Of a stretch of DNA of 49,131 nt, positions 10,103 through 49,104 are shown one piece after another. The stretch lies in IMG/VR virus record IMGVR_UViG_3300034061_004397, positions 1-49,131 of that record. The stretch is one strand, 5' to 3'. This stretch comes from a virus. Position 1 is the stretch's first letter, and the number at the start of each line of letters is the position of its first letter. The position numbers and the translations under genes were made by a program. Under the pieces are notes generated by a model. It saw only the letters and a list, made by a program, of their open reading frames with translations. It ran no database searches and was not told the DNA's origin.

Positions 10103-11116
10103 ATGACGCTCAACTGCTTCCTGGACACTGTCTATGTTCCGCTCCGGCTGCGCGGCCGGAGCAAGGAATCCGTTCGACTCCTGCGGCACGCGATTACTCA
10201 GTACGGCCGATGGCTGGGCCGGCCGGCGACACTCGACGATCTCGACGATCTGGCGGTCAGCCAATGGTTGACCGCCATGGGCCAGAAAAAGGCACCCAAC
10301 TCGGTCGCCCGGGAGCGTTCCGGGATCCTCGCGCTTTGGAACCTGGCCCAAGGCCGGGGCCTGGTGCGGCTTCGCCCCACCGTGGCCCCCGAGCTGGTGC
10401 CGCAGTCGGTCCCCCGGGCCTTCACGGAGGACGAGCTAGGTCGCCTGGCCCGCGCGGCCCTTCAGGCGACCGGCTGGATCGGCCCAGTGCCCGCGTGCGT
10501 GTTTTTTCCTGCGCTGTTGGCGGTGGGGCTCGAGACGGGCGAGCGGATCTCCGCGATGCTCAACACTCCAGCCGGTTACTGGCGTCGGCCGATGCTCACC
10601 GTGCCGGCGAGCGTCAGGAAAGGGGGCAGGCAGGAGCGTGTCTACGAGCTCTCGCCGGAGGCGAGCGATCTGCTCGACGCTGCCAGCCGTCACGGTGGGC
10701 CTACCGTCTTCTGGTGGCTCGCGTCCGGCACGGCCTTGAGGAAGCGGTGGAAGACCATTACCCGCCGGGCAGGAGTCGGCGACGGTCGAGATGTCCAATT
10801 CCATGCCCTGAGACGCAGCACTGCCTCGTTCCTGGCCGCGGCTGGGCTCGATGCAACCGCCTTCCTCGGTCATTCCAGCGATCGGGTCACACGTCGCAGC
10901 TACATTGACCCTCGCGTGGCCGAAAAAAATCGCCCGAAGGCGTGGCAGTCCATGCCGCGGCTGTTTGTGGGCGATTTGCAGCCCGGCAAGCCCGTTCTGG
11001 ACCGTCAGGAAGGGCCTGAATTTGGCCCAGGAAGCCCGTTTGTGGGGGTGGACGCACCGGCCGCGGCCGGCGACAATCGGGCCCCTGGCGGCCTGTCGGG
11101 AGAGAAACGGGCATAA
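10103..11116 (+). CDS. int: tyrosine recombinase (phage integrase)
   Basis: 337 residues. The SAM-like N-terminal domain (about 10-95) is followed by the catalytic domain: first Arg in GERISAM, HALRRS (His-x-x-Arg), GHSS, and Tyr in RRSYIDP. These are the catalytic residues of tyrosine recombinases. I see no extra helix typical of integron integrases, so it is more likely the phage integrase than IntI. Good GGAGGT site; transcribed opposite to the repressor. A ~60-residue C-terminal tail after the Tyr is low complexity. Confidence 0.85.
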   Translation: MTLNCFLDTVYVPLRLRGRSKESVRLLRHAITQYGRWLGRPATLDDLDDLAVSQWLTAMGQKKAPNSVARERSGILALWNLAQGRGLVRLRPTVAPELVPQSVPRAFTEDELGRLARAALQATGWIGPVPACVFFPALLAVGLETGERISAMLNTPAGYWRRPMLTVPASVRKGGRQERVYELSPEASDLLDAASRHGGPTVFWWLASGTALRKRWKTITRRAGVGDGRDVQFHALRRSTASFLAAAGLDATAFLGHSSDRVTRRSYIDPRVAEKNRPKAWQSMPRLFVGDLQPGKPVLDRQEGPEFGPGSPFVGVDAPAAAGDNRAPGGLSGEKRA

Positions 11117-40052: not shown

Positions 40053-41891
40053 TCAGGCAGTCGCCATCCGGTAGCAGGCACGGCCCTCGGCCTTCGCCAC
40101 GCCGAAGGAGAAGTGACCGCGGACCTGGATCCCCAGCACGTTGAAGTCGGCCTCGGCCTGCTCCACCGTCGGCGTCCGGACCCCGTTGAGGAACGCCACT
40201 TCCATCGCAGGCAGCTCGGCGGGGTTGGCGGCAAGCCACCACGTCGTAGCGCTGGTCAGGTAGGACGAGCTGACCACCCGGTAGCGGCCGGCGAGCACGT
40301 TGACGTTCGTCCGCGTGCTGTTCTCGCCGGTGATGAGCAGCGAGCCGCCCATCAGCTCCGCAGCCGTGATCTCCAGCTCCGGCGGCACCAGCAGGATCGA
40401 CGGAGCGATCCCCAGCGGGTTGCCGTCCGGATCGTTGATCTTCCGGTAGGCTGCGGCCGCCGTCTTGAGCGACCCGATCGCCAGCGCGTTGCCCCCGGCG
40501 GCCGAAGCCGCCTGGTAGAACGAGCTGTTGTTGAGCTCGAACGCGGTCCAGAAGACCTTGTTGAGCCGGGTCGCCGCCCCACGCCCGAGCCGAGCCGGGA
40601 CCGCCGTGAGAGCCCCGAGATCGTCGTTCACGATGTCCACCATCGTGATGGACGAGATCCGGCCGTACAGGTCGGCCTTGATCGTCCGGTTCTCGTCGCT
40701 CGCATCGGCGCTCTTGAGCTCGCCGTTTCCCCCCACCTGCTCGAACTCGAATCCGCCGTTGAGCCGGACGCCCGTCACGCTCTTGTAGTCGCTGACGCTC
40801 CGGATCGAGGCGATCTGCTCGTAGGTGGACTCGACCGCGGTGTAGCCCTGGAGAAGAAACTTCCCGTAGGTGGCCGCCAGCACGTTGGAGATGGAGTGGG
40901 TGGCGAACGCTCCCGCGAGGATTTCGCGGATGTTGCCCTCACGCACCTTCCCGCCGCACTGGACGCCGTTCGCGCGAGCCGCCTCGATCAGAACTTCCTG
41001 CAGGCCGATCGTCCGCGACCGCTGGTGGGCAGCCTCGAGCGTCCGGCTGTCGAAAGCCTTCTCGACGTTGGCGAGGCCGCCGGCGAGGCACAGGGCGGCC
41101 TGGACCACCCCGGGCGATTCCGGCCCCCTCTCCACGACGTGCACAGCCGGCGCCGACGGGCGGGAGGCACGGACCGCGGCGAGATTGTCCGCCTTGATCC
41201 GCTCCACCACCTTCGCGGCGATGCTGTCCACGTCGATGAGGCTCGCACCGTCACCGCCCTTGGCGGCAACGACGGACTCGACCTTCGGCTCCGCGGCGAC
41301 GATCGCCGGGGCTTCCGTCTGCGGCACGGCGGCCTCGACGGGCTTCTCGTTGAGCTGCTCGCTCATATTGGAAACCTCACTCGCCTCGGCGGCGATAGCC
41401 GCGGACGTGGAAGCGTCCGCACCGAACAACACGACACTGGTTTCCCGGAGATCGGATCCCCGGACGACACTGACCGGGCCAGCGAACTCGCGACCGTTGA
41501 CGGTCACGGCCCCGCCGGCACTGATGTTTTCGATGGCGCCCGCATCGGCGCCGATTGATGCCTGGAGCGGGATGCCCGCCTTCGCCAGAGCGATCACCCG
41601 CTCCGCCACCAGCCCGCTCGTGAGCAGCTCGCCGCGGATGACCAGCATTTCGCCGCTGTTGAGTATTTCGGTGGACCGGCCGATCACACCGTCCAGCGTG
41701 CGATCATGCGACCACAGGATCGGGATGGAGGCTTTGGCCGTGTTCATTCCGGCCAGGTCAACGACCAACGGATTGCGGCTCCACCCCTGCCGGATCGCGG
41801 CACCGGTGTAGGCCACGAGCTCGAAGGTGGGCGCGGCCTGCCCCTCGGCCGCCTGAACGGAGAATTGTGCGGACAACTCCAGTCGGTTCAT
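40053..41891 (-). CDS. fused prohead protease and major capsid protein
   Basis: 612 residues. Residues 1-~160 are an S78-type prohead protease: ILWSHD (58-63, His62) and ASIGAD (111-116, Ser112). Residues 165-270 are an Ala/Glu/Lys-rich scaffold-like linker. The C-terminal ~340 residues are the capsid domain. A single ORF would supply protease, scaffold and capsid. ATGA overlap with the portal gene. The octamer at 41663 forces an ATA codon in the protease part. Confidence 0.8.
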   Translation of the reverse strand: MNRLELSAQFSVQAAEGQAAPTFELVAYTGAAIRQGWSRNPLVVDLAGMNTAKASIPILWSHDRTLDGVIGRSTEILNSGEMLVIRGELLTSGLVAERVIALAKAGIPLQASIGADAGAIENISAGGAVTVNGREFAGPVSVVRGSDLRETSVVLFGADASTSAAIAAEASEVSNMSEQLNEKPVEAAVPQTEAPAIVAAEPKVESVVAAKGGDGASLIDVDSIAAKVVERIKADNLAAVRASRPSAPAVHVVERGPESPGVVQAALCLAGGLANVEKAFDSRTLEAAHQRSRTIGLQEVLIEAARANGVQCGGKVREGNIREILAGAFATHSISNVLAATYGKFLLQGYTAVESTYEQIASIRSVSDYKSVTGVRLNGGFEFEQVGGNGELKSADASDENRTIKADLYGRISSITMVDIVNDDLGALTAVPARLGRGAATRLNKVFWTAFELNNSSFYQAASAAGGNALAIGSLKTAAAAYRKINDPDGNPLGIAPSILLVPPELEITAAELMGGSLLITGENSTRTNVNVLAGRYRVVSSSYLTSATTWWLAANPAELPAMEVAFLNGVRTPTVEQAEADFNVLGIQVRGHFSFGVAKAEGRACYRMATA

Positions 41892-43336
41892 GCGGGTTGC
41901 TCCTGACGCCGGCCGCGGGCGGCCGGCTGGGCGGCCTCAAGGCCAAGCTCTTGCTCCAGTGCCTTCTCGGCGGCCCGCTGCCGGAGAACCATTCGCCAAT
42001 CGCGGCCGCGCTTGGCGCAGACTTCCGCGAGGCTCGCCATGTTTTGATTCACCATAGCCGCGTCGGCGTTGGCCTCTTTGAGCGGATCGACGTGCTCGAA
42101 GCCGTCCCAGCCCCACGCCCAATTCCACTCGGCGAACGGCGGCAGGCCGTCCGGCACCACGCCGGGCATCATCGCAGCCTCTTCGTGCCACGCCCGGAGC
42201 AGCGGGTCCAGCCACACCCGCTCCAGGTCTGCACGCTCGACCGCGATTCGCTTGCGATACACGAGGTAGTCGCCGCGCATCGAACTGTAGTTGGCCGACG
42301 AGGAATCCATCGCAGCCACGATGTAGGGCATGTCAACCGCGCGGGCAATCTCGTTGAGCAGTCGCCGCACAAACCCGTCGTAGGTGCTCGTGGGATGCTC
42401 GGCCTTCATTTGGTACGGCTCCCAGCCGTCCGGCGCCGCCACGGCCATGCCGCGAGTGATTGGCATCGTCTCGAACAGTTCCAGCTTCGCGGCCGCGCCG
42501 CCCTCGGCCGGCATGGTCGTCTTGAGGATCGCCGCGAAGTCAGCAGCCGTCTCGGCGGCCGTCACGGTCGCCAGCGTGTACCGCCGCAGAAGGGCGAACA
42601 GTTCAAGGGCCGGTGCAAACTCCGGCACGCCCCGATGCTGGCCGGGGCGGACCTGGTGGAACCAGTGCAGGCATTTGTCGGAGCCGATCCACTCGCCATC
42701 GAGGAACCAGCCCGGGAACAGGCCGCCAGGGTGCCGCTTCGAGATCCAGTATTGGGTCGGGTTGCCGTTCTCGTCGAACCGCACGCCGTCCACGTCGTTC
42801 TCCGGCGGGACACCGAACGGACTGATGCAATGATCGGCCTCGACCAGCTTGAGGTCGAGCTGCACGCCCTCCAGCCTCTTGTTGTTAACGTGCACGCCGA
42901 ATGATTCGCCGTCGCCCAACTTGGCGATCTTGGCAAGCCGCAACTTGCGCGCCAGGTCGATCGCCTCGAACCAATCGGCGATCGCATGCTCGACGGAGCG
43001 AGTTGCGTCAGCGTCCGCGTCAGGCCCAAGGTCGAGCCGCAGCGACGGGCCGGTGCCGACGAGGTCGTGGGCCCACGTCGAGGCCATGCCGGCCGCGTAG
43101 GAGTTGTTCGCGATTTCGTAGCGGGCCCTCGCCCGCATTTTCCGCCGCACTTCCGGCTGCAGCGCGGCATCGGCGGAGTAGTAGTCGGCCATGCTCCAAT
43201 GCCGCTCGTTGAGCGGCGTGGTCTGCGCGGCGTCGTACCGGGCACGCACGAGCTGGTTGATCGCCGCCTGCTGGGTGGCAACCTGCCGCCGCAACTTGCG
43301 GCCCGCAGAGAACGGGAGGTAGTCGGAGATCGGCAT
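41888..43336 (-). CDS. portal protein, lambda-type
   Basis: 482 residues. N-terminal clamp and wing helices (KMRARARYEIANNSYAAGMA), a WISKRHPGGLFPGWFLDGEW region, and FVRRLLNEIARAVDMPYIVA. Matches the Phage_portal_2 (lambda) family, which pairs with a GpA-type terminase. The terminase here is far upstream at 1337 rather than adjacent. TAATG overlap with the preceding gene. Confidence 0.85.
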   Translation of the reverse strand: MPISDYLPFSAGRKLRRQVATQQAAINQLVRARYDAAQTTPLNERHWSMADYYSADAALQPEVRRKMRARARYEIANNSYAAGMASTWAHDLVGTGPSLRLDLGPDADADATRSVEHAIADWFEAIDLARKLRLAKIAKLGDGESFGVHVNNKRLEGVQLDLKLVEADHCISPFGVPPENDVDGVRFDENGNPTQYWISKRHPGGLFPGWFLDGEWIGSDKCLHWFHQVRPGQHRGVPEFAPALELFALLRRYTLATVTAAETAADFAAILKTTMPAEGGAAAKLELFETMPITRGMAVAAPDGWEPYQMKAEHPTSTYDGFVRRLLNEIARAVDMPYIVAAMDSSSANYSSMRGDYLVYRKRIAVERADLERVWLDPLLRAWHEEAAMMPGVVPDGLPPFAEWNWAWGWDGFEHVDPLKEANADAAMVNQNMASLAEVCAKRGRDWRMVLRQRAAEKALEQELGLEAAQPAARGRRQEQPA

Positions 43337-43939: not shown

Positions 43940-44043
43940 TTATACGGCCCCGCATAACGCCGGCTCTCGCCGTCACGCCGCAGCCTGGCGTCGATCCGGC
44001 GGGGTGATATACGGCAGGGGGCGTGATATACGGGGCCGTATAA
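43940..44043. promoter_or_regulatory. 13-bp inverted repeat at the array edge
   Basis: TTATACGGCCCCG (43940-43952) and CGGGGCCGTATAA (44031-44043) are perfect inverted repeats 78 bp apart. Between them GTGATATACGG occurs twice. The element lies between the last cassette and the head genes. Candidate attachment-type site, operator or cruciform. Confidence 0.5.
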
Positions 44044-44052
44044 ATGTGGTTC

Positions 44053-44328
44053 TCAGAATATCGCCGCGTTGCCCTGCGTGTAGTCGCAGTCGGGGCAAAT
44101 CAGCCGAATCCGCTTGCCGTCAAACCAAGGGAACAGCCGCCCGTGCGAAGAGTCCTTGCCGCATGTCAAGGGGTGCATAGCCCACCTTTTCGGCGACCCG
44201 TCGTACTCGCGATCGCATTGGTGCAGCGACACCGCGTTCATTCGCTCAATGATGCTCTGTAGTTCGTTGACGTAGTCCGGCTGAGAACCACGCGATGCAG
44301 CGGACATCTCATTTACCTCGTCTCTCAT
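44053..44328 (-). CDS. cassette protein with Cys pair
   Basis: 91 residues (MRDEVNEMSAASRGSQPDYV). N-terminal ~15 residues are encoded by the attC-like site at 44282-44370. The body has MHPLTCGKDSSHGRLFPWFD and ICPDCDY, a zinc-ribbon-like layout. The stop lies in the lone GTTCTCA box at 44049-44055. Function unknown. Confidence 0.65.
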   Translation of the reverse strand: MRDEVNEMSAASRGSQPDYVNELQSIIERMNAVSLHQCDREYDGSPKRWAMHPLTCGKDSSHGRLFPWFDGKRIRLICPDCDYTQGNAAIF

Positions 44329-44370
44329 GGTTGCTCCTGTGTTCGATGCCGCTGATCGCTGGCGTTCTCA
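44282..44370 (+). repeat. attC-like site A
   Basis: Core TGAGAAC (44282-44288) and GTTCTCA (44364-44370). Arms GCGATgCAGCGG and CCGCTGATCGC with one extra G in the left arm. Loop 44304-44348 contains the start and ribosome-binding site of the 44053-44328 gene. Confidence 0.8.
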
Positions 44371-44697
44371 GCCTAACCGCTCAATCACGCCGCGAAGCGT
44401 AGCCGCGACCCTCGCACAGTCCTCGTCATCGTCGTTGTCCGCATACGACTCCGCAGCACACGCAATCGCCTCCCGCTCCTCGTCGGAAAGCGTGGGCTTC
44501 TTGACCACCAGCCCCAGCGAAAACAAAGCCGTGACGATGTTGACCGGCGCGCTGAGTGACGCATTGTTGTCGCGGCACCACTCAAAGGCTGCGTGCGCCA
44601 TCTTGGACCGCTCCGAGAAGAGCGGGCCACCCGGCAACTCGTATTCATCACCGTGAGAACCACGCGATGGAATGGGCTGCTCATTTTCGTCTGTCAT
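44368..44697 (-). CDS. cassette protein, LSDEER family
   Basis: 109 residues (MTDENEQPIPSRGSHGDEYE). KKPTLSDEEREAIACAAESY and LRGVIERLG at the end resemble the proteins at 45142, 45503 and 397. Starts in site B's loop, stops in site A's GTTCTCA box. Confidence 0.65.
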   Translation of the reverse strand: MTDENEQPIPSRGSHGDEYELPGGPLFSERSKMAHAAFEWCRDNNASLSAPVNIVTALFSLGLVVKKPTLSDEEREAIACAAESYADNDDDEDCARVAATLRGVIERLG

Positions 44698-44742
44698 GTG
44701 TCATGCTCCTGTGTTCGCAGCCATTCATCGCTGGCGTTCTCC
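44654..44742 (+). repeat. attC-like site B
   Basis: Core TGAGAAC (44654-44660) and GTTCTCC (44736-44742). Arms GCGATGgAATGG and CCATTCATCGC: the bases differ from site A but pairing is kept, and the single extra G is kept, which is the covariation expected of a structured site. Confidence 0.8.
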
Positions 44743-44771
44743 GACTTAATCCAATCAAACATTTCCACTGG

Positions 44772-45098
44772 TCACACGTCGGGGCTGCCGCAGCGAATGC
44801 GATCCAAGTGCCACCAAAGGGATGGACCAGGCTTGTCGCCAATGTCTGGAAACATCGCAACCAACGCCGACCCTTCTTCTGTGGTGATTCGCTCGGCTCG
44901 CCGGAATCCGTTGGCACGCTGGCTTCGTCCGTCGTTGTCCACAACCAAATAACGCCCGTGATGCGTGTAGCCTGAGACGAACCCGACGAAAAAATGGTCG
45001 CCCGCGTCGCCGTCGTCGTACTTGGTCGCAAGCACGTACTCCCCGACAGCCAGCGGAGAACCACGCATTGCAACAGACCGCTCAGTATCGTCGCTCAT
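44772..45098 (-). CDS. cassette protein
   Basis: 108 residues (MSDDTERSVAMRGSPLAVGE). GDAGDHFFVGFVSGYTHHGR and a WHLDRIRCG end. Different from the LT-EER family. Strong AGGAGG site in site C. The stop is ~30 bp short of site B's core box, the exception in the array. Confidence 0.6.
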   Translation of the reverse strand: MSDDTERSVAMRGSPLAVGEYVLATKYDDGDAGDHFFVGFVSGYTHHGRYLVVDNDGRSQRANGFRRAERITTEEGSALVAMFPDIGDKPGPSLWWHLDRIRCGSPDV

Positions 45099-45144
45099 GG
45101 TTGCCACCTCCTTAGTTCGCCGCTCCTGATCCTTCACGTTCTCA
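45055..45144 (+). repeat. attC-like site C (degenerate)
   Basis: Core GGAGAAC (45055-45061) and GTTCTCA (45138-45144). Arms pair poorly. It contains the start of the 44772 gene. Confidence 0.5.
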
Positions 45145-45459
45145 TTGTGTCCGCTCAAGCAGCCCGCGAATGATCGCGGCATCCTTAACCGTCACAAACC
45201 ACGGCCGGCCGTTGGAATACTTGTCCCACTCGCCAGTTTCGTAACCGAGTTGCGACAGCACCCCACGCTCCTCTTCGGTGAGCGCGGGCGAGCGGCACAG
45301 CGGGACGACGCCGTGATTGCCAGTCACCACTTCGTCAATCGCCTTGGCCTCCTCTTCGTAGCGATAGACATCGTAGACGCTGCCGTCGATCCGCAGCACG
45401 GCCCACGCCGCCGGCTGAGAACCAGCCGATGCAACAGACCGCTCATTTTCATCACTCAT
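45142..45459 (-). CDS. cassette protein, LTEEER family
   Basis: 105 residues (MSDENERSVASAGSQPAAWA). Contains VPLCRSPALTEEERGVLSQL and ends IIRGLLERTQ. N-terminus from attC-like site D, stop in site C's box. AAGGAGG site. Family resembles small proteins that I recall from planctomycetes and their phages; function unknown. Confidence 0.7.
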   Translation of the reverse strand: MSDENERSVASAGSQPAAWAVLRIDGSVYDVYRYEEEAKAIDEVVTGNHGVVPLCRSPALTEEERGVLSQLGYETGEWDKYSNGRPWFVTVKDAAIIRGLLERTQ

Positions 45460-45505
45460 AGTCGCCGCCTCCTTTGTTCGCGGCTGCTGATCGTTCACGT
45501 TCTCA
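45416..45505 (+). repeat. attC-like site D
   Basis: Core TGAGAAC (45416-45422) and GTTCTCA (45499-45505). Arms CGATgCAACAG and CTGCTGATCG: one extra G and one mismatch. The loop holds the start codon of the 45142 gene. Confidence 0.7.
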
Positions 45506-45790
45506 ACCTAATCGTTCCAGTAAGCCTTTCAGCGTTGCTTCCCATGCAAACGCCCCTCGCCCGTGCTCGGATGCAATCGCACCGCCAATCGCCGCCCGCT
45601 CCTCGTCGGTGAGTATGGGCTTGCGGTAGAGGGCGGCAACTTGCCAGCCCATTCTGGCGGCCACTTCCTCAACAGCCTGACGGTTCAAGGACGTAGCGCC
45701 CGTTTCTCCGCTGTCGTCAGCGAAGGCAGCCCAAGCCGCAGGCTTTTGAGAACCACGCGATGCAGCGGACATCTCAGCCTCGTCTTTCAT
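45503..45790 (-). CDS. cassette protein, LTDEER family
   Basis: 95 residues (MKDEAEMSAASRGSQKPAAW). YRKPILTDEERAAIGGAIAS, ending LKGLLERLG. Starts in site E's loop, stops in site D's GTTCTCA box. Paralogue of the 45142 protein. Confidence 0.7.
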   Translation of the reverse strand: MKDEAEMSAASRGSQKPAAWAAFADDSGETGATSLNRQAVEEVAARMGWQVAALYRKPILTDEERAAIGGAIASEHGRGAFAWEATLKGLLERLG

Positions 45791-45835
45791 GGTTGTGAAT
45801 CTTCCCTTCGATGCTGCTCAATGCAGCCGTTAGCG
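45747..45835 (+). repeat. attC-like site E (chimeric)
   Basis: Left core TGAGAAC (45747-45753) and left arm GCGATGCAGCGG are standard; the right core is GTTAGCG (45829-45835) with a poorly matching right arm. Looks like two half-sites joined by recombination. Confidence 0.6.
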
Positions 45836-46063
45836 GACGTGCGATGCAATCCACTGATCCATGTCTGGCTGGTGATCCTTGAGAGCCAAGCCAAATCTGC
45901 CAGCGTCAGTGATGTACGGCCGGTCTGAATCTGGCTCGTACCCCAGCAGCGTCAACCCACGCCTGGACATTTCGCGAGGCTCTCCAGTATTTCGGCAACC
46001 GACACGCATCCCGACTTCAATCGTCCGTCCGATCTCGTCTCGTATTACCATCTGATTCTCCAT
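45830..46063 (-). CDS. cassette protein
   Basis: 77 residues (MENQMVIRDEIGRTIEVGMR). MSRRGLTLLGYEPDSDRPYI and WIASHVR. Begins next to site F (GCGAGGAA site), stops in site E's GTTAGCG box. Unrecognised. Confidence 0.6.
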   Translation of the reverse strand: MENQMVIRDEIGRTIEVGMRVGCRNTGEPREMSRRGLTLLGYEPDSDRPYITDAGRFGLALKDHQPDMDQWIASHVR

Positions 46064-46068
46064 TTCCT

Positions 46069-46118
46069 CGCTAACCAAGCGATGCTGCGGACTGACGCCG
46101 CAGATCGCATCGTTAGCC
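46069..46118 (+). repeat. attC-like site F (compact)
   Basis: Core CGCTAAC (46069-46075) and GTTAGCC (46112-46118). Arms GCGATgCTGCGG and CCGCAGATCGC pair perfectly apart from one extra G; loop 7 bases. The cleanest site in the array; its arms covary with sites A and B. Confidence 0.85.
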
Positions 46119-46580
46119 CATACCAGAGCCACGGCGGCCCCTGCGTTTCGTCCTCTTCGCCGCGTTGACCCTCTTGATCGTTTCGACGTGACCTTCCATT
46201 GCCGGTGCCGCAACCCGCAGCTTGGCCGCTAGCGCGGCACGGATCACGTCGCTCGGCGTTGTGCCGTGTCGCTCGCAGTGGGCCGCCAGAAGGGCAGCCA
46301 GTGGGCCGAGACGCAAGGTTACGCGGTCGTTCATTTCATCTCCACCGAGCCGAAACAAAGGGTAAATACTGGCCGTGCAATCACAGCCGTAGTCGGACAG
46401 ATACAGATCGGCCTCGCCTTGCGTCTCGTGTATTGTCGTGCATCCGTCAATGTCGCATACCCAGCAATAGGCGTCATTGAGATTTACGCCCAAAACGCTG
46501 AACAACTCCGGCAAGGCGCGCAGCGGAGGCTGTTTCCCTCGCCGAAACTCGGCCTTTTCTGCGTCAGATAATTTCGTCAT
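46113..46580 (-). CDS. cassette protein with RHH-like C-terminus
   Basis: 155 residues from MTKLSDAEKAEFRRGKQPPL. Cys-rich middle (CWVCDIDGCTTIHETQG, DYGCDCTA); from ~93 a ribbon-helix-helix-like segment (NDRVTLRLGPLAALLAAHCE, GTTPSDVIRAALAAKL). Stop in site F's GTTAGCC box. Could be a regulator. Confidence 0.6.
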   Translation of the reverse strand: MTKLSDAEKAEFRRGKQPPLRALPELFSVLGVNLNDAYCWVCDIDGCTTIHETQGEADLYLSDYGCDCTASIYPLFRLGGDEMNDRVTLRLGPLAALLAAHCERHGTTPSDVIRAALAAKLRVAAPAMEGHVETIKRVNAAKRTKRRGRRGSGMG

Positions 46581-46842
46581 CGCTAAATCCTGCGTCTCGT
46601 CGCTCTTGCTGCAATCTCTCAAGTTGTTGGTCCGACAGCCCTTCGGATGCTATCCAGCCAGCGGCCCTGGCCCTGGCCTTGGAGGCCGTCTTAGACGTGC
46701 CTCGATCAATCTGGCGACCAGTCACGTCCTGAATAATCCAGTCCCAACCCTGCGGAGACTTCCGCACCCAAGCGACACGCTTCGGGTGCTCCTCTTTGAT
46801 GAGGTTGTATTGTCCGCTCGGAAATCGCATCCAATCCGTCAT
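46564..46842 (-). CDS. hypothetical 92-residue protein
   Basis: MTDWMRFPSGQYNLIKEEHP, WVRKSPQGWDWIIQDVTGRQ and a charged helix at the C-terminus. ATGA overlap with the previous gene. Same cassette as its two neighbours. Confidence 0.6.
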   Translation of the reverse strand: MTDWMRFPSGQYNLIKEEHPKRVAWVRKSPQGWDWIIQDVTGRQIDRGTSKTASKARARAAGWIASEGLSDQQLERLQQERRDAGFSDDEII

Positions 46843-47015
46843 TCCTGCCACTCCTTCCTGTATTCGATCACCATGCCCCCGACGTAGGCGGCTGCTGCTT
46901 CGGCAATCTTCCGGCGAGCATGGCGGCTCACTTCTTCGCCGTTCACCATCACCACAAACTGCGTCTTGGTCTTGGTCTTCATCGTTCGGCCCCCAGTGGT
47001 GTCGTTGATCGCCAT
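46839..47015 (-). CDS. hypothetical 58-residue protein
   Basis: Starts MAINDTTGGRTMKTKTKTQF; FVVMVNGEEVSRHARRKIAE and IEYRKEWQE. First gene of the three-gene segment between sites F and G. A later ATG (MKTKTKTQ) is possible. Confidence 0.55.
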   Translation of the reverse strand: MAINDTTGGRTMKTKTKTQFVVMVNGEEVSRHARRKIAEAAAAYVGGMVIEYRKEWQE

Positions 47016-47099
47016 GTCCGTATTGTACCATCGTCGGACAAAGGAGCAAGCCCCCTGCACTTATTTCTTTCGGATCCTTGTTGTTCCCGAGAAAAGCAA

Positions 47100-47188
47100 G
47101 GCTAACCACGCGATGCAGCGGACCCGCGAGCCGCCGTCTGGTTGTAGTTTCGTCAACGGTCGCGGGCCGCTGATCGCAAGCGTTATGC
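47100..47188 (+). repeat. attC-like site G
   Basis: Core GGCTAAC (47100-47106) and GTTATGC (47182-47188). Arms GCGATgCAGCGG (47110-47121) and CCGCTGATCGC (47167-47177). The loop region has its own CCCGCG/CGCGGG stem. Translated on the plus strand it gives NHAMQRTR, a peptide I recall from planctomycete annotations. Confidence 0.85.
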
Positions 47189-47217
47189 GTCTCAACTTTT
47201 TCGCTCAAGTGCGCAAT

Positions 47218-47340
47218 TCAGCGGCGGCGTTGATGCCATCGCGGCCGATGGCTGCGCTTGTGAGGGAACCCGATAGACAATGCGCCCATCATCACGACGA
47301 ATGCCGCCACAGCCAGAACGATAATCGCTGTTTCGCTCAT
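47218..47340 (-). CDS. 40-residue membrane protein (right copy)
   Basis: MSETAIIVLAVAAFVVMMGA then a basic tail (SHRPRWHQRRR). One transmembrane segment, positive-inside C-terminus. AGAGGGA site. The first 13 codons are repeated at 1-40. Confidence 0.65.
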   Translation of the reverse strand: MSETAIIVLAVAAFVVMMGALSIGFPHKRSHRPRWHQRRR

Positions 47341-47427
47341 TGTTCCCTCTGTGATTCCCCGCAGATCGCAAGCGTTAGCCAACCCATGCCCGCTCGGGAT
47401 CATCGTTCCAAGTTTTGCCACTCCGCG
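47301..47427 (+). repeat. 127-bp exact direct repeat with window start
   Basis: Identical to positions 1-127; both copies diverge at the next base (A at 128, C at 47428). Includes an attC-like half site H (arm 47359-47369, core GTTAGCC 47374-47380) and the start of the membrane protein. Confidence 0.9.
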
Positions 47428-47593
47428 CCGGCATCGTAGCCTCATTTCGCGCCGGCTGTGCCCGCTCGGGACAATGCCTGGCGTTCGCTCGCAGCAGACG
47501 AATCTCGTCGTGCGCAGCAAACAGCCGGATCGACTGATACGCTGCCGCCATCCAACCAGCGGCGGCCAGTATCCACGGAAGGGCTCTACTCAT
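47375..47593 (-). CDS. 72-residue single-pass membrane protein (right copy)
   Basis: MSRALPWILAAAGWMAAAYQ plus a polar C-terminus (SGKTWNDDPERAWVG). Paralogue of 75-293. Stop in the GTTAGCC box at 47374-47380. Function unknown. Confidence 0.65.
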   Translation of the reverse strand: MSRALPWILAAAGWMAAAYQSIRLFAAHDEIRLLRANARHCPERAQPARNEATMPARSGKTWNDDPERAWVG

Positions 47594-47707: not shown

Positions 47708-47986
47708 TCACTCTGCGTACGGCCCGATCTTCAACAACTCGATCCGCCGTCTCACGTAGGGGCTGAGTTCCAACGTCTCAGCCCCATCCTCGTCCTCGAG
47801 CTCCTCGGCCGTCGCCGACGTATGCCTCCAGCAGTATGGCCGCTCTGGCAAGGCGCGGTCTCGCGCCAACCGGCGGACGTGGCGGTCCGAGACGCCAAGG
47901 TCTCGCGCCACCTCCGACACGGTCAGGCTGTGGTCGTTCCACAAGCGAAACAGAGCCGGCACGTCGATGTCGAGTCTAGTCGCCAC
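47708..47986 (-). CDS. HTH protein after the sliding clamp
   Basis: 92 residues. Homeodomain-like HTH at 20-48 (LTVSEVARDLGVSDRHVRRL), then an acidic tail. Begins 2 bp after the clamp stop. Candidate regulator; a small-terminase role is possible since none was found, but unsupported. Confidence 0.65.
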   Translation of the reverse strand: MATRLDIDVPALFRLWNDHSLTVSEVARDLGVSDRHVRRLARDRALPERPYCWRHTSATAEELEDEDGAETLELSPYVRRRIELLKIGPYAE

Positions 47987-47988
47987 GT

Positions 47989-49104
47989 TCAGGCCTCCGT
48001 GTCTAGGGGCATGATCACGCCCGTGTAGGTGTCGTCGCTCCGCATGACGACCGCCGAGCCCTTGTCCTTGGCCGTGAGGGTCACGACCGGGTCACCGCCC
48101 GAAGGCAGACACCGCAGCCACTCACGCACGAAGGCCGGGTCAAGCACCACCGAGCACTCATGCCCGGCGTCCTGAACCTCGCACGTCACGCTTGACTCCC
48201 CAACCTCGGCCGACCGAGCCACCATGTGGATGCCTTCCTGCGTGAACGTGTACCGCACGCCCTTCGACTGCTCACTCGTCACGATCGCCGCTGCCGTCGT
48301 GGCCGACAGCAGATCCGCCGCCAGGACAACGGTCGGCTCCTGCTCGCCCTTCGGCAGCACGTCACGCCACCGAGGGAATCGCCCCTCGACCAGCCTGGCC
48401 GTCAGCCTGACGCCGTCGCAGGTGCAGACCACCTCACGGTCGCTGGCGTCGATCTCCACCTTCTCCTGCCCCCCGGCCGATGCCAGCGAGTAGAGAATCC
48501 CCGCAGCCCGAGCCGGCAGCAGCGTCTGCGACGGGTCAAGGTTCACCGCGTTCTCGATCGCCGCCAGGTGCAGCCGCCGCCCGTCGGTTGCGACGAACGA
48601 CACCTTGCCCTCAGCCTCGACCTCAATCAGCACCGCACCCAGGGCGTAGCGGCTGCTCTCGTTGTCGGTCGCCACCAGCACCGAGCGGATGGCGTGGGCC
48701 AGCTGCTCAGCCGGATGCTGCGTCCGTGCCTTCAGCCCTTCCGGTTCCCACGAAGGGAACTCCGCTGCATCCTCGGTAGGCAGCGTCCAACTGCCCCGAC
48801 CGCACCGCACCTCGCACGTCGAGTCCTTCGGCGTGAACGTGACCTCATCGCAGCCGGCGGCGTTCAAGATCGCCAGCAGTCTGCCGTGGGGCAACAGCAT
48901 GGCATCGCCGTGGTAGTCGATGTCCACGTCCAGGCGGACCTCAAGGTCCGTGGCCGAGACTCGACCGTCACCGATCCTGACGTTCGCCAGCACCGGTTTT
49001 ACGGCACGGGCCGACACAGCCTTGCCGACCACCTGCAATGCACTCCGCAACTCGGCGACGTTCAATGTCACGCCACCAGTCCGCTTTCGTTCCTTGACTG
49101 CCAT
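47989..49104 (-). CDS. dnaN: DNA polymerase sliding clamp (beta subunit)
   Basis: 371 residues with the three-domain beta-clamp pattern: LRSALQVVGKAVSARAVKPV, VATDNESSRYALGAVLIEVE, FVATDGRRLHLAAIE, VEGRFPRWRDVLP, and the C-terminal GVIMPL. Clamps tether polymerases to DNA. No phage polymerase is visible, so it may load host polymerase or replace the host clamp. Stops 3 bp before the HTH gene. Confidence 0.9.
   Translation of the reverse strand: MAVKERKRTGGVTLNVAELRSALQVVGKAVSARAVKPVLANVRIGDGRVSATDLEVRLDVDIDYHGDAMLLPHGRLLAILNAAGCDEVTFTPKDSTCEVRCGRGSWTLPTEDAAEFPSWEPEGLKARTQHPAEQLAHAIRSVLVATDNESSRYALGAVLIEVEAEGKVSFVATDGRRLHLAAIENAVNLDPSQTLLPARAAGILYSLASAGGQEKVEIDASDREVVCTCDGVRLTARLVEGRFPRWRDVLPKGEQEPTVVLAADLLSATTAAAIVTSEQSKGVRYTFTQEGIHMVARSAEVGESSVTCEVQDAGHECSVVLDPAFVREWLRCLPSGGDPVVTLTAKDKGSAVVMRSDDTYTGVIMPLDTEA

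Follow-up and report, generated by a model that had tools for sequence, protein, structure and literature searches.

A putative host-type attI site and a changing array of inverted attC cassettes in a tailed-phage record without a detected integron integrase

How can an array of integron-type attC sites be maintained in the genome of a tailed phage, and which enzyme could act on it? The window, that is, the whole stretch of DNA analysed here, is a linear virus record of 49,131 bp (IMGVR_UViG_3300034061_004397) that encodes a terminase, a lambda-type portal, a capsid, a head protease (capsid/protease), a tail tape measure and tail proteins. Congruently, the gene profiles supported the original prediction of a tailed virus with terminase, portal and capsid but no IntI in the record. 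Among the components of a complete integron, intI was not found when the integron integrase (TIGR02249) was searched across the whole window record, which may be incomplete. The array begins with a GTT box at 44049 and closes with a half attC whose last base is 47379, so the predicted location (44049-47380) was right, and it lies between the portal gene on one side and an HTH/dnaN pair on the other. The relevant phage genes are:

10103-11116, + strand: phage tyrosine recombinase, not IntI (phrog_1; XerD-like, 31 bits; no TIGR02249 match)
41888-43336, - strand: portal protein, left flank of the array (PF05136, E 3e-56)
47708-47986: HTH protein, right flank, beside dnaN (Pfam)
47989-49104, - strand: DnaN-like sliding clamp, right flank (Pfam)

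The sliding clamp gene is phage-borne and lies next to the array. Positions 1-130 of the window are a copy of 47299-47430 (the end of the last cassette and the backbone that follows); since the contig start falls in a repeat, a second array end may be where the record is broken. Scans of the window for Rfam families and for tRNA genes returned no matches.

We then characterized the hairpin sites, of which at least six had been predicted. The analysis confirmed attC-type hairpins and raised the count to seven complete sites within 44283-47187, every top strand being on the + strand, plus one half-site. Scores refer to our covariance model R1:

44283-44369, + strand: attC 1 (GAGAAC/GTTCTC), 62.4 bits, E 7.8e-16; loop with SD and ATG (44328) on the - strand
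44655-44741, + strand: attC 2 (GAGAAC/GTTCTC), 52.1 bits; SD and ATG (44697) on the - strand
45056-45143, + strand: attC 3, imperfect stem, 26.9 bits, E 1.7e-5; SD and ATG (45098) on the - strand
45417-45504, + strand: attC 4, 49.8 bits; SD and ATG (45459) on the - strand
45748-45834, + strand: attC 5, hybrid (R'' GAGAAC, R' GTTAGC), imperfect stem, 33.4 bits; ATG (45790) on the - strand, weak SD
46070-46117, + strand: attC 6, short and clean (GCTAAC/GTTAGC), 34.2 bits; single-stranded DNA fold z -5.5
47101-47187, + strand: attC 7, host-type, with a CGCG-rich inner stem (GCTAAC/GTTATG) and a loop without a start codon, 72.5 bits, E 8.8e-19; z -3.9
47358-47379, + strand: half attC (L' and R' only) at the array end; backbone in common with the sister phage L245 resumes at 47379 (sequence, repeats D9/D12, L245 alignment)

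The sites show complementary R''/R' and L''/L' arms, an extra base in L'', an unpaired spacer and a GTT core, and the three stems singled out in the prediction (CAGCGG/CCGCTG, GAATGG/CCATTC and CTGCGG/CCGCAG, each with the extra base) are present as described. A planctomycete attC model has been published (Ghaly et al., 2021, PMC8352920). The proposed covariance-model check was carried out with a model of our own, not that of IntegronFinder, for which we used 41 attC sites from hosts, almost all of them planctomycetes. In the window it matched the seven sites, with E values between 2e-5 and 9e-19; no other match in the window was better than E 0.3. As the host sites were collected with a pattern that included the R''/L'' arm of the window sites, that arm is shared by construction, but L', R' and the pairing evidence are not. 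A strict structural scanner found 3 sites on the + strand and none on the - strand, against ~0.1 per shuffled strand. Single-strand folding, the other proposed check, gave a mixed outcome: it was strong for the sites at 46070 and 47101, but the one at 45417 folded no better than shuffles (z -0.4).

The predicted stem covariation was borne out in a larger set. Across 142 distinct phage sites, in an alignment that was fitted to the structure and so leans towards it, 92.5% of cells were paired and 349 two-sided changes were counted, compared with 102 +/- 8 after shuffling; none of 500 shuffles reached 349, and slid controls were much lower. These comparisons identify the sites as attC by sequence and structure. 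With seven in a row and no TIGR02249 match, the array is a CALIN, a term for at least two consecutive attC sites with no intI nearby. In the phage sites the top strand mostly has G as the extra base, and both G and C occur in host planctomycete sites; in class 1 and Vibrio attC sites the top strand has C.

Next, we looked for a site at which cassettes might enter. In host loci the attI separates intI from the first cassette and has the same orientation as the cassette attC sites, and the 12 host attI sites have in common a 17-nt tail such as CCGTAGAATTACAAGTT downstream of a TATACGG-like box. A position weight matrix (PWM) built from these 12, with one deletion allowed equally for all sites, ranked window positions 44026-44051 first of 1130 GTT sites with 22.2 bits, the next scoring 2.5 bits; the host sites themselves scored 17.5-39.8 when left out one at a time.

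43998-44051, + strand: attI-like site, with a 17-nt direct repeat at 43998-44014 / 44017-44033 (...TGATATACGG; repeat D18) followed by CCGTATAAATGTG and GTT; junction at 44049-44051

The attI-like site also ranked first in each of the sister phages L245, L246 and L247, and the spacing of the direct repeat upstream of it agrees with host attI in the alignment. The phage thus appears to carry a host-type attI, and it is the match to host attI, together with the turnover at the junction described below, that would make it the attI of a complete integron. A 17-nt inverted repeat, TTATACGGCCCCGCATA / TATACGGGGCCGTATAA, at 43940-43956 and 44027-44043 spans the site; it is possibly a hairpin or terminator.

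The orientation of the array follows from the same loci. On the strand that leads away from intI in the host loci, the arm with the extra base comes first (5'), so the top strand of the window sites is +. We had considered the - strand as the functional top strand, with each cassette body fused to its neighbour's start codon, but rejected it because the host intI/attI loci set the orientation, the phage attI faces the same way, and a relocated unit in L246 and L247 carries its own attC up to the R' box.

To which host do these sites point? The search of planctomycete genomes proposed in the original prediction showed the same attC family in arrays beside intI. An intI over cut-off was present in 18 of 34 planctomycete genomes with this attC family and, in one family, in 27 of 72. 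Relatives of the portal, at 44-51% identity, occur in many planctomycete genomes, the only group searched. The likeness of attC and attI and these portal relatives make a planctomycete the probable host. In the host loci L202-L209, intI and cassettes run in the same direction, unlike in class 1 integrons.

Our results lead us to consider it quite likely, from sequence comparison, that the window array is an integrase-less phage integron run by the IntI of its host. Host IntI would be the simplest agent because the attC, the attI and the junction are all the same. The phage would hold a host-type attI and a short, fast-changing cassette array in which an attC ends each cassette; during infection or lysogeny, host IntI would insert cassettes at the phage attI and excise or shuffle them via attC. 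Consistently, no IntI over cut-off was found in any of 50 array-bearing phage records, many of which are fragments.

The phage's own tyrosine recombinase (10103-11116) might instead move the cassettes, making host IntI unnecessary. Its homologues are present in 21 of 32 array-bearing phage records and, as a profile, recall XerC/XerD and weakly IntI4. We nevertheless regard this as improbable: TIGR02249 was touched by only 3 of 15 homologues (best E 4e-6), and the attI matched by the phage is that of host intI loci. Moreover, four portal relatives (G538, G543, G544 and G548) have a recombinase homologue and no attC match, which indicates that the enzyme goes with temperate life rather than with the arrays.

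We then compared related phages at the attI-like junction. The left boundary is common to the window and L245-L247 (set B), near-identical up to GTT and unrelated beyond, with four different first cassettes in the four phages. Another common boundary, in 17 phages (set A), is followed by 16 different continuations. In both sets identity is 0.88-1.0 before GTT and falls to 0.22-0.33, the random level, from +4 on. The attI-like sites of set A fit the host attI PWM weakly (ranks 1-10); we discarded them as matches to the same host attI type, given this weak fit and no similar sequence in the examined host intI loci.

The backbones of L246 and L247 are 99.65% identical over 9786 bp, after which the array content differs. 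An exact 313-bp unit with a GTT box at both ends is the attI-proximal cassette of L247, whereas in L246 it follows another attC; its left flanks in the two phages are non-homologous. The array of L245 measures 0.68 kb compared with 3.3 kb in the window, with the same backbone on both sides. Whole cassettes are common, at 90% identity or more, to 18 phage-phage pairs, and in 13 of these 18 the flanks are unrelated on both sides; cassette 6 of the window, for instance, matches one in phage contig L058 at 98.2% identity, between unrelated flanks. Comparison therefore establishes turnover at G/TT and the relocation of an intact cassette, and the relocated 313-bp unit and the cassettes in common behave as the mobile units of a complete integron. 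As judged from these genomes, cassettes have been exchanged between phages at the attI-like site, and recombination would have taken place at these sites.

Homologous recombination between similar attC repeats, rather than a site-specific reaction, could also produce differing arrays. Neighbouring attC copies in the window are 60-80% alike and could template such exchange, and some paralogous cassettes of L246 and L247 differ in body and have their attC in common. We consider this very unlikely, since the junctions fall at G/TT even at attI-like sites that lack a repeat arm, and the exact 313-bp unit has GTT boxes at both ends and non-homologous left flanks.

Returning to an array served by host IntI, we examined the cassettes themselves:

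44053-44328, - strand: cassette 1 ORF, 91 aa, with cysteine pairs reminiscent of a zinc ribbon; TGA stop within the GTTCTCA box on the attI side
44368-44697, - strand: cassette 2 ORF, 109 aa; TGA stop within the R' box of attC 1
44772-45098, - strand: cassette 3 ORF, 108 aa
45142-45459, - strand: cassette 4 ORF, 105 aa (PAAWAV...LERTQ type); stop codon within the R' box of attC 3
45503-45790, - strand: cassette 5 ORF, 95 aa (PAAWAV...LERTQ type); stop codon within the R' box of attC 4
45830-46063, - strand: cassette 6 ORF, 77 aa
46113-47000, - strand: cassette 7, three small ORFs at about 46113-46580, 46564-46842 and 46839-47000 (ORF list, translations)
47218-47340, - strand: last cassette, small ORF MSETAIIVLAV... 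(translation)

The cassette 1 ORF gave no Pfam match. In a complete integron a Pc promoter drives forward cassettes; the ORFs of the phage cassettes point in the opposite direction. Across phages, the main ORF runs against the top strand, i.e., is inverted, in 160 of 178 cassettes, compared with 15 of 88 in hosts (Fisher 8e-33), where 73 of 88 are forward; the call takes the longest ORF of each cassette with an ORF, a criterion that may err in GC-rich DNA, but the host control went the opposite way. The inversion itself is thus established by comparison, as is the placement of starts and stops. Of the 160 inverted phage cassettes, 108 start within their own attC, 89 of them in the same frame. 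An earlier scan found an SD-like stretch at 45 of 60 such starts in phages and at 0 of 19 host reverse ORFs. The first five window ORFs start at 44328, 44697, 45098, 45459 and 45790, with a clear SD in four, and a common leader (MxDExxE...ASRGS) is encoded by the attC loop and arm. The distance from the stop to the neighbour's GTT is typically 1 base (26 cassettes), 4 bases (61) or 9 bases (30), and the stop is often a TGA or TAA in the core box. The original prediction had included neither the attI-like site (44026-44051) nor the inversion of the cassettes nor start codons in attC loops.

Inverted relative to the host, cassettes would place their genes along the leftward transcription of the phage, readable as part of an operon, and would be expressed from upstream phage transcription. 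Most have a ribosome-binding site and start codon in their own attC loop and many take their stop from the neighbour's R' box; with its own start signals and a neighbour's stop, any inserted cassette would be ready to translate. Planctomycete phages would then probably run a cassette economy of their own on a borrowed enzyme, with a host-type attI, inverted phage-specific cassettes, attC sites as translation-start modules and no integrase.

The cargo presumably serves the phage. Among 134 cassette products scanned, 12 matched DUF551 and a few matched HNH, MT-A70, DNA methylase or HTH families, and PADLOC returned few matches, mostly single. Phage and host cassette pools are almost disjoint among the cassettes sampled: no cassette was shared between host and phage at the nucleotide level, and the only relation is that of the first cassette of L134, 45% identical in amino acids to a phage cassette protein. 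On this host contig intI lies beside ordinary chromosomal genes, and in the chromosomal integron at positions 1-1100 the cassette next to attI contains an inverted DUF551-like gene of the phage type, a single case that suggests phage-host exchange. The idea of a route for cassette transfer between hosts was not supported in the form proposed; the exchange we found is between phages. That the array is the decaying relic of a CALIN acquired a single time from a host chromosome is hardly credible despite two window sites with imperfect stems and a terminal half-site, as sister phages hold wholly different content at the same fixed site, the attC stems covary, phage cargo and orientation differ from the host pool, and the phage-type site TGAGAACCACGCGATGCAG is absent from 392 planctomycete genomes.

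How does this compare with known systems? The sections of Qi et al. (2023, PMC9892861) considered here focus on recruitment into bacterial integrons. They report 17 CALINs from scattered phages, and IntI1 recombined five of the six phage attC sites that were tested into attI1. The window array resembles those CALINs as an attC cluster without intI in a phage genome. The same sections describe neither a phage attI lacking intI nor a planctomycete phage nor arrays of inverted cassettes. In comparison with them, our array adds an attI-like site at a fixed position, at which sister phages differ in their cassettes, as well as the inversion of the cassettes and start codons within attC. In the open-access literature we found no description of a phage attI without intI, inverted phage cassettes or attC-borne start codons. 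With planctomycete chromosomal integrons (L134, L150, L153 and L202-L209) the array has in common the attC family, the attI sequence type and the G/TT junction; unlike the phage record, which lacks intI and has inverted cassettes, the hosts have intI and mostly forward cassettes. As in class 1 attI1 with ORF-11 (reviewed in PMC8876359), a recombination site also bears translation-initiation signals for a cassette. ORF-11, however, is part of attI and acts through coupling to assist the first cassette, whereas in the phage the SD and start codon lie in each cassette's own attC, fused to the ORF.

If our reading is right, integrons would be two-sided, a bacterial gene bank and a viral platform for fast swapping of accessory genes, and phages could in this way reshuffle genes for counter-defence or host takeover. 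An attI without intI would be a natural experiment on site choice by IntI, and a single DNA element would combine the hairpin for recombination with a ribosome-binding site and a start codon. Arrays of this kind may be undercounted in surveys of CALINs that presuppose forward cassettes or strict GTTRRRY cores.

Finally, two IntI were detected on viral contigs, neither tied to these arrays. One of the contigs, L275 (IMGVR_UViG_3300034053_000051), has tail-like ORFs, a phage-type integrase, four attC sites and a full-length IntI of 346 aa that is 50% identical to a planctomycete IntI; the contig may represent a phage or prophage with a complete integron.
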